Part shown: piece after piece, positions 3,303 to 6,754 of the stretch | Layout of the letters: each line of letters opens with the position of its first letter | Position numbering within the stretch: position 1 is the first letter of the stretch | NCBI GenBank assembly: GCA_018882885.1 | Contig: VERG01000010.1 | Coordinates: 1 to 57,167 of the forward strand | Length of the DNA: 57,167 nt | Source: Candidatus Nanopelagicaceae bacterium | GTDB taxonomy: Bacteria > Actinomycetota > Actinomycetes > Nanopelagicales > Nanopelagicaceae | Direction: 5' to 3' | Position numbers and translations under genes: made by a program | The notes under the pieces: model-generated | What the model was told of the DNA's origin: nothing | What the model saw: the letters and a program-made list of their open reading frames with translations, nothing else | Database searches by the model: none

Positions 3303-3362
3303 CTCTGTCTTGCGTAGTTGTTGATTTATTACTTATCCAACTACCAATCAAATGAGGAAAAA

Positions 3363-3866
3363 ATGTCGATTACTAATGTTTTAAAGTTCAACACCACAGA
3401 GGATGTAAAACTACTTGATGCCCGTGGACCAAGATTTGGCGCGTTGCTTACCACGATTGTTTTGACTGCAATATTGTTGACCGGATCATTGCCATTATTG
3501 CTTTGGCAACTTGGGGTATTTGCACTTGGTGCTTTTGCTGGACCACAGGCATCTCCTTACGCATTTATCTATCGCAAGTTTGTGAAGCCGCGTTTGTCAG
3601 GTGATATGCCGACAGAGGATTCCCGTCCACCACAGTTTGCACAAGTGGTTGGATTTTTGTTTGCATTGACCGCAACGATTTCATTATTAGCTGATGTCAG
3701 CTCTGTCTTTACCGTTGCGGTTGGCTTTGCGTTAGCGGCAGCATTCTTAAATGCGGTCTTCAATTTCTGCCTAGGTTGCGAGATGTATCTAAGGATCGCT
3801 CGAATCCGCAGCGCTATTTCTATGCGTAAAACCCCGGAGGATTCCTACAACCTGCCCAACCTTTAG
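3363..3866 (+). CDS. DUF4395 membrane protein
   Basis: A 167-residue membrane protein of the DUF4395 family. The ATG at 3363 is preceded by a good ribosome site (GAGGAAAAA) and is preferred to the TTG at 3318. Residues 20-60 and 95-140 are strongly hydrophobic and give about four membrane segments in two hairpins. The last one ends in the family's conserved FCLGCEMY block with a cysteine pair at 136 and 139. The neighbouring CTPC thioredoxin plus this cysteine pair suggest the two exchange electrons, but this is inference. The gene ends 9 bases before the Fur-type regulator, which appears to have its own promoter inside this gene's 3' end. Confidence 0.8.
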   Translation: MSITNVLKFNTTEDVKLLDARGPRFGALLTTIVLTAILLTGSLPLLLWQLGVFALGAFAGPQASPYAFIYRKFVKPRLSGDMPTEDSRPPQFAQVVGFLFALTATISLLADVSSVFTVAVGFALAAAFLNAVFNFCLGCEMYLRIARIRSAISMRKTPEDSYNLPNL

Positions 3867-3875: not shown

Positions 3876-4292
3876 GTGGCAGATAAGAATCATGAACTTC
3901 GGGATAAGGGCCTGCGCCTAACCCCACAACGCCAATTGGTATTGGAGGCGGTGCGTGCTCTTGGTCATGCCACCCCAGAAGAGGTTGCAGAGAAGGTGCG
4001 CGCGACCCATCCGGGAATCAATCTTTCAACCGTTTATCGCAATTTAGAGACGCTGGAAAATGTTGGTTTGGTACAGCACACCCATTTAGGTCATGGTGGT
4101 GCGACTTATCATGCAGCAGAGGAGCTAACCCATCTGCACTTGGTTTGTGGCAAGTGTGGCTCTGTTGGTGATGCACCTATTGAAACTGCTGCACCTTTTG
4201 TAAATACCTTGATTGATGAGTATGGCTTTAAAACCGATGTCACCCATTTTGCGATTTATGGAACCTGCGCTAACTGCACTGCAAAATCATGA
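3876..4292 (+). CDS. Fur-family metalloregulator
   Basis: A 138-residue metal-responsive repressor. The N-terminal winged helix contains RLTPQRQLVLEAV and the recognition block LSTVYRNLETLE. The dimerisation half has the structural zinc cysteines Cys91/Cys94 (CGKCG) and Cys131/Cys134 (CANC) plus the histidine-rich sensing region HTHLGHGG and THLHL. A Fur-family gene directly before ygfZ matches the Streptomyces arrangement where the regulator is the nickel-sensing Nur, but the metal (Fe, Zn, Ni) cannot be decided here. GTG start, likely leaderless. The stop overlaps the ATG of ygfZ by 4 bases. Confidence 0.88.
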   Translation: MADKNHELRDKGLRLTPQRQLVLEAVRALGHATPEEVAEKVRATHPGINLSTVYRNLETLENVGLVQHTHLGHGGATYHAAEELTHLHLVCGKCGSVGDAPIETAAPFVNTLIDEYGFKTDVTHFAIYGTCANCTAKS

Positions 4293-5197
4293 CCGCGGTA
4301 TTTGTTGAAGAGGGTCTAGACAAAGGTGCGATTTGGCACTTTGGTGAGGTTGCTAAAGAGCAACGCGCCTTAGCTGAAGGAAAAGCTTGGGCGGATTTAT
4401 CTCATCGCGCAGTTATTGAAATCAGCGGCGAGGATCGTTTGATGTGGCTGCACTCTTTGACCACCCAACACCTAGAGAACTTGGTTGCTGGTGATTGGAA
4501 AGAGGCGTTGATTTTGGATCCGCAGGGACATATTGAGCAACAATTATTTTTGGTGGATGATGGCAGCGCCACATTTATTCATTTAGATCAAGAAAAAGCA
4601 CCAGCGCTTTTGGATTACCTAAACAAGATGCGGTTTATGTTGCGGGTTGATGTTAAGGATGTATCGGGTGAGTATGCGATTGTGCGCGCCCCTGGAAAAA
4701 CAGATGCAATTGGCGGTCCATTTGCATTGGTACCACGAAGTGAGTTAGCGGCAACTACCGCTGCATTTAACTCGGCAAATCTGCAGGTTGGTATGTGGGC
4801 GCTGGAAGCGGAGCGGATTGCATCAGGAAGAGCAAGAATTGGGCTAGATAGTGATTACAAATCAATCCCAAATGAACTGGGCCAATTAAATAAAGCGGTT
4901 CATATGAATAAAGGTTGTTATCGCGGCCAAGAAACTGTGGCTAAGGTATTTAACTTAGGGCATCCACCACGTCGCTTAGTTTTGTTGCATCTTGATGGCT
5001 CCAGTGTTGATATTCCATCCCATGGCGATGCGGTGATTTATGATGGCAAAGAGATTGGTTTTGTTGGATCTGTGGCCCGGCATTATGAGTTGGGACCAAT
5101 CGCCCTCGCCGTTATTAAGAGAATGACGCCGGCCGATGCGGTATTGACGGTAAATGGCATCCCTGCCAATCAAGAGATACTTGTACCGATAGATTAA
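4289..5197 (+). CDS. ygfZ: YgfZ/GcvT-like folate-binding iron-sulfur assembly factor
   Basis: A 302-residue cytoplasmic protein of the YgfZ/IbaG57 family, which uses tetrahydrofolate to help maintain or assemble certain Fe-S enzymes. The diagnostic signature KGCYRGQE is at residues 208-215 with the essential Cys210. The GcvT-like N-terminal part contains DRLMWLHSLTTQHLENL. It overlaps the Fur-type gene by ATGA and is followed 4 bases later by a tiny membrane protein gene. Pairing a metalloregulator with an Fe-S maturation factor suggests a metal/Fe-S homeostasis unit. Confidence 0.9.
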   Translation: MTAVFVEEGLDKGAIWHFGEVAKEQRALAEGKAWADLSHRAVIEISGEDRLMWLHSLTTQHLENLVAGDWKEALILDPQGHIEQQLFLVDDGSATFIHLDQEKAPALLDYLNKMRFMLRVDVKDVSGEYAIVRAPGKTDAIGGPFALVPRSELAATTAAFNSANLQVGMWALEAERIASGRARIGLDSDYKSIPNELGQLNKAVHMNKGCYRGQETVAKVFNLGHPPRRLVLLHLDGSSVDIPSHGDAVIYDGKEIGFVGSVARHYELGPIALAVIKRMTPADAVLTVNGIPANQEILVPID

Positions 5198-5201
5198 ACC
5201 T

Positions 5202-5309
5202 GTGGAGATAATTACCACCATCGCATTGATTGTGAGCGCTTTATTTATGTCGCTAGCGATTCTGGGTTACTCTGCAAAACAATGGCGCAAGCTGAAGAAG
5301 GGGCGGTAA
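5202..5309 (+). CDS. Small single-pass membrane protein (35 aa)
   Basis: GTG start 4 bases after the ygfZ stop. The product has a hydrophobic segment (roughly residues 3-24, ending LFMSLAILGY) and a very basic tail WRKLKKGR, giving a predicted inside-facing C-terminus. The stop TAA shares its last base with the ATG of the nitrobindin-like gene (TAATG), so downstream translation is probably coupled to it. The basic tail is encoded by the purine-rich AAGCTGAAGAAGGGG, which also serves as the ribosome site for the next gene. It is easily missed by gene callers. I do not recognise a named family; function unknown. Confidence 0.7.
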   Translation: MEIITTIALIVSALFMSLAILGYSAKQWRKLKKGR

Positions 5310-5809
5310 TGGCTTTTCAAATTCCTGAAGGGTTACATCCTGATCTAAACCCATTGGCTTGGTTGGTTGGTACCTGGCGCGGCAAAGGTCATGGCGAGTA
5401 TCCCGGTATTGAAAACTTTCAATTCGCTCAAGAGGTCACCTTTAGTCATGATGGCAGACCTTTTCTCACCTATTTTTCTCGCTCTTGGATTATTGATGAC
5501 AACAACGAGATTATTAAAACCGCTGCCTCCGAAACCGGTTTTTGGCGGGTCAAACCGGCGAACACACTTGAGGTTTTGATTGCGCACAGCACTGGAATTG
5601 CAGAAGGTTGGGTGGGCAGATTTGATGGACCAAAGATTCAATTAGCAATGGATCACGCTTACTCTGCGCCTTCAGCAAAATCCATGGAGGGTGGACAGCG
5701 TTTGTATGGCTTAGTTGAGGGCGAGCTTTTTTATGCCTATGACATGGCCTACAACGGCAACAAGTTGCAAGCCCATATCTGGTCGACCTTGCCGCGGGTG
5801 CAGGATTAA
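5309..5809 (+). CDS. Nitrobindin-like heme-binding FABP-family protein
   Basis: A 166-residue cytoplasmic beta-barrel protein (DUF1794/THAP4-like). The family signature GxWxGxGxG is present as GTWRGKGHG near residue 25, after the usual LHPDLNPLAWLVG. Related nitrobindins bind ferric heme and react with NO or peroxynitrite. I start at the ATG at 5309, coupled by TAATG to the preceding small ORF, because the longer form from 5282 would read through that ORF's tail. The gene lies within the fur-ygfZ run, consistent with heme/iron or nitrosative-stress function. Confidence 0.82.
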   Translation: MAFQIPEGLHPDLNPLAWLVGTWRGKGHGEYPGIENFQFAQEVTFSHDGRPFLTYFSRSWIIDDNNEIIKTAASETGFWRVKPANTLEVLIAHSTGIAEGWVGRFDGPKIQLAMDHAYSAPSAKSMEGGQRLYGLVEGELFYAYDMAYNGNKLQAHIWSTLPRVQD

Positions 5810-5815
5810 TTGTTA

Positions 5816-6754
5816 ATGAAAACCGGCGAGGTTTTGCTCGAGGTAGTAAGAAATGATTTAGTGGAATCGGTACATGCCGGACACTTAATGATTTTGGATG
5901 CAGCAGGTAAAACGGTTTTACAAATTGGTGATGTCGATTCAATTATCTATCCTCGCTCTGCGGTTAAATCTTTACAGGCTTCAGCGATGTTGCGGGCCGG
6001 TGCCAAGTTAACTGATCAGCAAATCGCGTTGGCCTGCGCTAGTCATGCCGGCAGCGCACAACATTTAGCTGTGGCGATCTCGACATTAGCAAGTGTGGGA
6101 TTGGATGAGAGTGCGCTGCGTAATACCCCCGATAAACCACTGGATCCAAAGGAGCGTGTGGCCTGGGGGGATAAAGCACCAAGTTCACTTGCCGCTAACT
6201 GCAGTGGCAAACACTCTGCGATGTTGGCCACTTGTGTAGCAAATAATTGGGATATCAATACTTATAAGAATTCAACCCATCCGTTGCAGATTGCGATTAA
6301 AAATGAGTTTGAAGAGTTGAGTGGAGAGAAAATCTCCAAGGTTGCGGTAGATGGATGCGGTGCGCCGTTGTTTGCATTGACCCTTAAAGGCTTAGCTAAT
6401 GCGGTCAGAAATCTAAGTATTTCAACAGATCCAATTCATCAAAGAGTTATTAGCGCTTGCATAACCAACCCAGTATTGGTCTCCGGTGTTGGTCGCCTCC
6501 CAACATTGTTAATGGAAAAAGTAAATGGATTATTTGTTAAAGATGGCGCAGAGGGCGTCATGATTATTGCAACCAATAAAGGTGAGGTAATTGTTTGGAA
6601 GATGAGTGATGGGTCCCAGCGCGGAGCAGGAGCTTTGGCTGTTGCGACTCTTTCGCAATTAGGGATTTCAGTAGATATTGAACGGGAAAAAGTGCTCGGA
6701 GATGGCCAGGTTGTAGGAGAAATTAGGGCGAGTAAACTCGTCTCCAATGGCTAA
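5816..6754 (+). CDS. Asparaginase (AnsA/PF06089 type)
   Basis: A 312-residue hydrolase converting L-asparagine to aspartate and ammonia. It belongs to the serine-lysine family known from Rhizobium etli, not to the E. coli AnsA/AnsB fold. Visible signatures are YPRSAVKSLQ (Ser and Lys of the catalytic pair), CASHAG, NCSGKHSAML and VDGCGAP. The ATG at 5816 is preferred over the TTG at 5810. It follows the nitrobindin-like gene by 6 bases and overlaps mshA by 8 bases (ATGGCTAA), so it is in the same transcription unit. It has no signal peptide and is therefore cytoplasmic. Confidence 0.85.
   Translation: MKTGEVLLEVVRNDLVESVHAGHLMILDAAGKTVLQIGDVDSIIYPRSAVKSLQASAMLRAGAKLTDQQIALACASHAGSAQHLAVAISTLASVGLDESALRNTPDKPLDPKERVAWGDKAPSSLAANCSGKHSAMLATCVANNWDINTYKNSTHPLQIAIKNEFEELSGEKISKVAVDGCGAPLFALTLKGLANAVRNLSISTDPIHQRVISACITNPVLVSGVGRLPTLLMEKVNGLFVKDGAEGVMIIATNKGEVIVWKMSDGSQRGAGALAVATLSQLGISVDIEREKVLGDGQVVGEIRASKLVSNG

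Follow-up and report, generated by a model that had tools for sequence, protein, structure and literature searches.

A small gene ahead of nitrobindin in a Candidatus Nanopelagicaceae bacterium probably descends from the complex II subunit SdhF

The window analysed here is a stretch of 57,167 nucleotides of DNA from a Candidatus Nanopelagicaceae bacterium. Directly upstream of its nitrobindin gene lies an ORF of 35 codons that codes for a protein and evolves under purifying selection. In relatives from the class Actinomycetes, the small ORF in this slot is SdhF, a subunit of complex II. The window gene quite probably descends from SdhF, from which it has strongly diverged. The full reading, in which a real gene of SdhF descent is translated from a leaderless mRNA, is coupled to nitrobindin and supplies a protein to a respiratory complex, is reasonably likely.

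SdhF is a 3 kDa subunit of the complex II of Mycobacterium smegmatis and corresponds to chain E of 6LUM (Gong et al. 2020, PMC7447783). In the trimeric, diheme enzyme Sdh2, it is located near helix I of SdhC and seals the proximal quinone site (PMC7447783). Homologues of SdhF were described as mainly mycobacterial (PMC7447783). In a review, the synteny of the SCO4179-type actinobacterial nitrobindin with an adjacent fur gene is noted as conserved (PMC4255298). The SCO4179-type locus has the same nitrobindin and Fur neighbourhood as the window, but a small gene beside nitrobindin is unmentioned in the passages of the review that treat this locus (PMC4255298). Among open-licence PMC papers, supplements excluded, no literature joining SdhF to nitrobindin was found, though it may be in print elsewhere. 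In their accessible text, further open-licence PMC papers name SdhF in a figure legend or a reference list only.

With the present results, an orphan respiratory subunit gains a findable gene address, the slot before nitrobindin, and its host range is much wider than its describers reported. For annotators, the slot marks a place at which a cistron can easily be overlooked. Lineages that keep, diverge or lose SdhF after loss of the enzyme amount to a natural experiment. Moreover, laboratory strains of Streptomyces or M. smegmatis now allow a direct test of what SdhF does and of whether complex II and nitrobindin are linked.

The small ORF is a conserved coding gene

The features of the locus in the window are as follows.

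3876..4292, + strand: Fur-family regulator, upstream neighbour (PF01475, E=9.2e-23)
4289..5197, + strand: ygfZ, upstream neighbour (TIGR03317, 87.4 bits, cut-off 49)
5190..5195, + strand: TAGATT, a -10-like TANNNT box overlapping the last codons of ygfZ (box position in 40/52 loci)
5202..5309, + strand: small ORF, probable SdhF-derived positional homologue with one predicted membrane helix (sequence, conservation, pN/pS, AlphaFold2)
5297..5303, + strand: GAAGGGG, SD-like motif for nitrobindin, within the small ORF (sequence)
5307..5311, + strand: TAATG, small-ORF stop overlapping the nitrobindin start (sequence)
5309..5809, + strand: nitrobindin (PF08768, E=6.2e-47; starts aligned in relatives)

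The small ORF opens with a GTG at 5202, 4 bases beyond the ygfZ stop codon (5195-5197), and closes with a TAA at 5307-5309 on the + strand. Its product, MEIITTIALIVSALFMSLAILGYSAKQWRKLKKGR, has an acidic N-terminus, a single hydrophobic stretch and a C-terminal part with a net charge of +6. AlphaFold2 models the 35-residue product as a single helix from residue 2 to residue 34 (mean pLDDT 91.5). The initial annotation had placed the start 4 bases past ygfZ and had described one hydrophobic helix with a basic tail, and both descriptions hold. The gene is present as a single copy in the genome of the window (G000). Neither the small protein nor any of six relatives had a match above a curated cut-off in scans of Pfam and NCBIfam. 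Weak matches to DUF3188, YniB, FixQ and other families were inconsistent from relative to relative and were set aside.

Nitrobindin was searched in 100 related genomes and found in 84, and 70 loci were read (L001-L070); the remaining nitrobindin places, which were truncated, second copies or of low identity, were left out. The window family contributes 43 of the loci read, two of which have no upstream DNA, leaving 41 that could be evaluated. By one mechanical rule, a hydrophobic small ORF ending at the nitrobindin start is present at 35 of these 41 loci, and the same rule recovers it at 18 of the 27 loci that represent other Actinomycetes. Shuffled upstream DNA gave a mean of 0.20 such ORFs for the window family and 0.10 for the other Actinomycetes, and shifted positions gave 0/158 and 1/108, respectively. 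Among nine genus members, the pN/pS of the small ORF is 0.336 in frame and rises to 1.14 and 1.81 when the frame is shifted. It is 0.36 when the last ten codons, the part that overlaps the SD-like motif, are omitted.

A chance open frame without function would fit the shortness of the ORF and the lack of a family model in Pfam or NCBIfam, but the shuffle, shift, pN/pS and promoter controls all speak against it and make it extremely improbable. The small ORF of the window is almost certainly a genuine gene. A small membrane protein under selection had been proposed for this place, together with a search for a short frame between the neighbouring genes in other actinobacteria. The selection is confirmed, and the frame was found at the 18 non-family loci. 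The outcomes that had been named beforehand as counter-evidence, a frame that is not conserved or carries stops in relatives, were not encountered.

Nitrobindin is the constant neighbour of the small ORF, and fur and ygfZ are inconstant upstream neighbours among relatives. Directly upstream of fur in the window lies the gene of a DUF4395 membrane protein (3318-3866). At one relative locus (L053), a DUF4395-like frame ends directly ahead of the SdhF ORF.

The slot ORF of class relatives is SdhF

Outside the window family, the slot ORF reads like MLExFFTxLLVxVxxxIxWFAxYVVYKLYKGQx. A profile composed of 14 slot proteins from outside the window family (A3) was compared with the PDB and gave one convincing chain, 6LUM chain E (succinate dehydrogenase subunit F), at E=1.6e-7. 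The slot ORF of one genus-g20 genome aligns with this chain over all 32 residues (E=5.9e-13). Its GTG is preceded by a TAGACT box, and nitrobindin lies downstream of it. The g20 genome is taken to be mycobacterial because its slot ORF matches 6LUM chain E. The match is upstream of nitrobindin, and therefore the SdhF gene is the small gene before nitrobindin. The slot ORF of class relatives is SdhF. The small gene had first been described as unnoticed; it does exist, but the occupant of the slot across Actinomycetes is a subunit that had already been described.

From 175 A3-positive genomes, 80 were picked for family spread, and an SdhF place was listed for 78. A nitrobindin gene on the same strand follows within 1.2 kb downstream at 75 of these 78 places, and within 300 nt at 74; 13 of the 78 genomes had fed A3, and 62 of the 65 independent ones are linked to nitrobindin. 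The three places that are unlinked all belong to genus g27 (L089, L107, L108). In L089, the SdhF gene (1493-1596) has a TAGGCT box and comes after a deacetylase-like frame, which we take from its sequence to be a PIG-L/LmbE-like deacetylase.

The linkage at 75 of 78 places and the fact that the two genes overlap in the window could mean that the small protein is a membrane partner of nitrobindin, with the helix recruiting this heme protein to the membrane or to a respiratory complex harmed by NO or peroxynitrite. However, the ORF is missing beside nitrobindin in 64 of 80 loci of a named set (by A3) and in 6 of 41 window-family loci, the SdhF genes of g27 are unlinked, SdhF was found in Sdh2 and not with nitrobindin, and no fusion of the small protein and nitrobindin was seen among the loci read. 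A nitrobindin partnership is thus considered very unlikely.

SdhF follows Sdh2, with exceptions

By A3, SdhF is present in 175 of the 296 class genomes (171 of the 291 of high quality), and Sdh2-type SdhC, scored as a TIGR02970 match above cut-off, is encoded in 139 of the 296. SdhF is present in 135 of the 139 genomes with Sdh2-type SdhC versus 35 of the 157 without it, a comparison in which 7 weak TIGR02970 and 5 weak A3 matches were counted as absent and in which the relatedness of the genomes makes the Fisher value overstate their independence. Because SdhF persists in 35 genomes in which no Sdh2 was recognised, the tie is not strict, and these are real exceptions; in 33 of the 35, the model for Sdh2-type SdhA likewise has no match at E up to 1e-100. 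The Sdh1-type (NF005866) and b558-type (TIGR02046) enzymes have a weak negative association with SdhF.

The named set was collected by nitrobindin alone and has an A3 match upstream in 16 of its 80 loci, which include Kribbella, Embleya, Catenulispora, a Streptomyces and a Candidatus Nanopelagicales MAG. Sdh2 is found in 14 of 16 A3-positive versus 1 of 33 A3-negative genomes (Fisher 2.5e-9), for which all 16 A3-positive genomes and 34 of the 64 A3-negative ones were chosen and one (L203) was left out.

Three genomes (G069, G101, G266) possess a strong Sdh2-type SdhC and have no SdhF match by A3. A small hydrophobic ORF was looked for in three sdh regions (L114, L115, L117) and not found, in a search that covered the sdh region of G266. 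In genus g35, many NF005866 matches contain a single in-frame TGA, at which the match probably extends beyond the end of the gene.

Descent and possible partner of the window protein

The window protein is not recovered by direct comparison with SdhF. A3 gave no match in G000, the WF..YVVYKL motif is absent from the protein, and the window-family profile (A2) produced only chance matches against the PDB, 6LUM chain E not being among them. In the window family, 16 of 40 genomes have A3 matches at E up to 10, at 21 places. These weak matches were rejected as markers of the slot, in which one of the 21 places lies (G032, E=1.15). When the two profiles were compared with each other, A2 matched A3 with a probability of 80-87%. 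Among 200 column shuffles none reached this remote similarity, and among 200 block shuffles one did; the reversed control gave a probability of 0.8%.

The window protein and 6LUM chain E share a length of about 32-35 residues (35 in the window), a single helix, the nitrobindin slot, a leaderless-type promoter and this remote profile match. The position directly upstream of nitrobindin was adopted here as a mark of SdhF and does not come from the SdhF paper. The window protein is unlike chain E in that it lacks the WF..Y motif, has a more basic tail and is missed by A3. Descent from SdhF is the best reading because of the profile match, the shared slot, the promoter, the size, the topology and the presence of canonical SdhF in the slot, together with Sdh2, in a Candidatus Nanopelagicales MAG (L200). 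The SdhF gene would then be an orphan that stands before nitrobindin in most Actinomycetes with Sdh2, and the window gene would be one of its descendants.

The M. smegmatis host of SdhF has Sdh2, whereas the genome of the window is without it and encodes Sdh1 only. No match to TIGR02970, TIGR02046 or TIGR01816 was found in G000. Its Sdh1-type SdhA matches 7d6v_A (E=7.1e-297) and also NF005866, and its Sdh1 membrane subunit matches 7d6v_C (E=5.4e-94). The 7D6V structure is presumably the Sdh1 of M. smegmatis, an enzyme with a Rieske cluster in the membrane. Because the direct sequence match and the Sdh2 partner both fail, the window protein is not filed as SdhF. It is best described as a probable SdhF-derived positional homologue, not a proven SdhF, and its role as a succinate dehydrogenase subunit is putative.

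The protein probably inserts into the membrane with its basic tail inside, where it would pack against a respiratory membrane complex. In the window lineage, Sdh2 is absent and Sdh1 remains, and the present partner is uncertain; it may be Sdh1 or another membrane complex. That the window protein has a respiratory complex as its partner today is proposed tentatively. The initial annotation had suggested a membrane partner for Fe-S or heme/NO protection. As the subunit of a heme and Fe-S enzyme, SdhF is indeed near to this suggestion, but protection against NO is unsupported, and Sdh2, the enzyme that SdhF is known to bind, is absent. According to a broader scenario, SdhF is an old actinobacterial complex II subunit rather than a peculiarity of mycobacteria, with its gene tied to nitrobindin as a respiratory heme/NO unit, and in the small-genome lineage of the window it outlived Sdh2 and was remodelled into a helix with a basic tail that serves a new partner, Sdh1 or nitrobindin. 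This scenario is speculative and somewhat doubtful.

Start of the small ORF, overlap with nitrobindin and loss of the ORF

The TAGATT at 5190-5195 overlaps the ygfZ stop and leaves a spacer of six bases to the GTG at 5202. Among 52 small ORFs, which include 17 of the 18 rule-positive non-family loci and whose start codons were chosen by hand where the frame offered several (in most cases the conserved M-(L)-E, a choice that could favour the box), a TANNNT box is located 11-14 bases before the start in 40, the window included, and 12 or 13 bases before it in 38. In shuffles, 3.2 of the 52 had such a box on average and never more than 10, and the nitrobindin starts of the same 52 loci gave 0. 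An SD-like motif precedes 7 of the 52 small ORFs versus 25 of the 52 nitrobindins.

A box shortly before the start codon, without an SD, is the look of leaderless actinobacterial genes, and the window has a TANNNT box within 6-8 bases of the start codon and no SD. Judged from these letters, the small ORF of the window is probably read leaderless, from an mRNA that its own promoter would start at or near the GTG. Leaderless initiation from its own promoter is more likely than initiation through nearness to ygfZ. The placement of the gene had been read as a sign of selection for translation; the frame is indeed under selection, but nearness to ygfZ is the less likely route of initiation. The box is missing at that place from L006, L007 and L008, which are three of the nine genus members, and transcription from ygfZ may serve their small ORF.

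Leaderless small uORFs have been described in mycobacteria, with cysteine-rich regulatory candidates as examples (Shell et al. 2015, PMC4633059). Like these, the window gene appears to be a small leaderless first cistron that overlaps the next gene and carries the SD in its 3' codons. It differs in that the mycobacterial examples are cysteine-rich regulatory candidates, and none of those met in the text of that paper is the window locus (PMC4633059).

The stop codon of the small ORF overlaps the nitrobindin ATG (5309-5311) in the sequence TAATG, and the SD-like GAAGGGG (5297-5303) ends 5 bases ahead of this ATG. The nitrobindin ribosome site thus lies inside the small ORF, as had been stated. 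An upstream ATG at 5282, which had been pointed out as a rival start for nitrobindin, is present in the window. The start at 5309 is favoured because the relatives aligned here start at this position and because the SD is downstream of 5282. Ribosomes that end at the TAATG could help nitrobindin to initiate, with the SD being inside the small ORF. The ORF after nitrobindin is listed from a TTG at 5810, and the in-frame ATG at 5816 may be its true start.

Six of the 41 window-family loci are without the small ORF (L014, L019, L024, L029, L030, L031). The TANNNT box is kept in all six. In four it is directly before the nitrobindin GTG, and two have a frame of 13 or 7 codons that encodes no helix and still overlaps the nitrobindin start. 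A search of the six genomes for an ORF that had moved elsewhere gave no convincing copy (best E 0.06). Promoter and overlap can therefore outlive the small protein. An Sdh1 SdhA match is found in four of the six genomes (partial in two), which means that Sdh1 does not need the small protein and weakens the idea that the protein is a requirement of Sdh1.

The boxes and mini-frames kept at these loci, along with the TAATG overlap and the SD within the small ORF, are consistent with a cis leader, whose main effect would be to load ribosomes for nitrobindin, with little function for the peptide itself in this lineage. Yet selection at the level of residues extends outside the SD part (the pN/pS of 0.36), the hydrophobic helix and the basic tail are kept in 35 loci, the relatives in genus g27 stand alone with no adjoining nitrobindin, and the SdhF relative is a physical subunit. 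A pure leader role is unlikely. It ranks below a role in a respiratory complex, Sdh1 or other, which is the preferred reading, and above a partnership with nitrobindin.

At four loci (L018, L027, L028, L038), a TANNNT-like box precedes an extra ATGGAG shortly upstream of the start of the small ORF. The GGAG could act as an SD for the ORF's own ATG, and a leaderless start may have become leadered at these loci.
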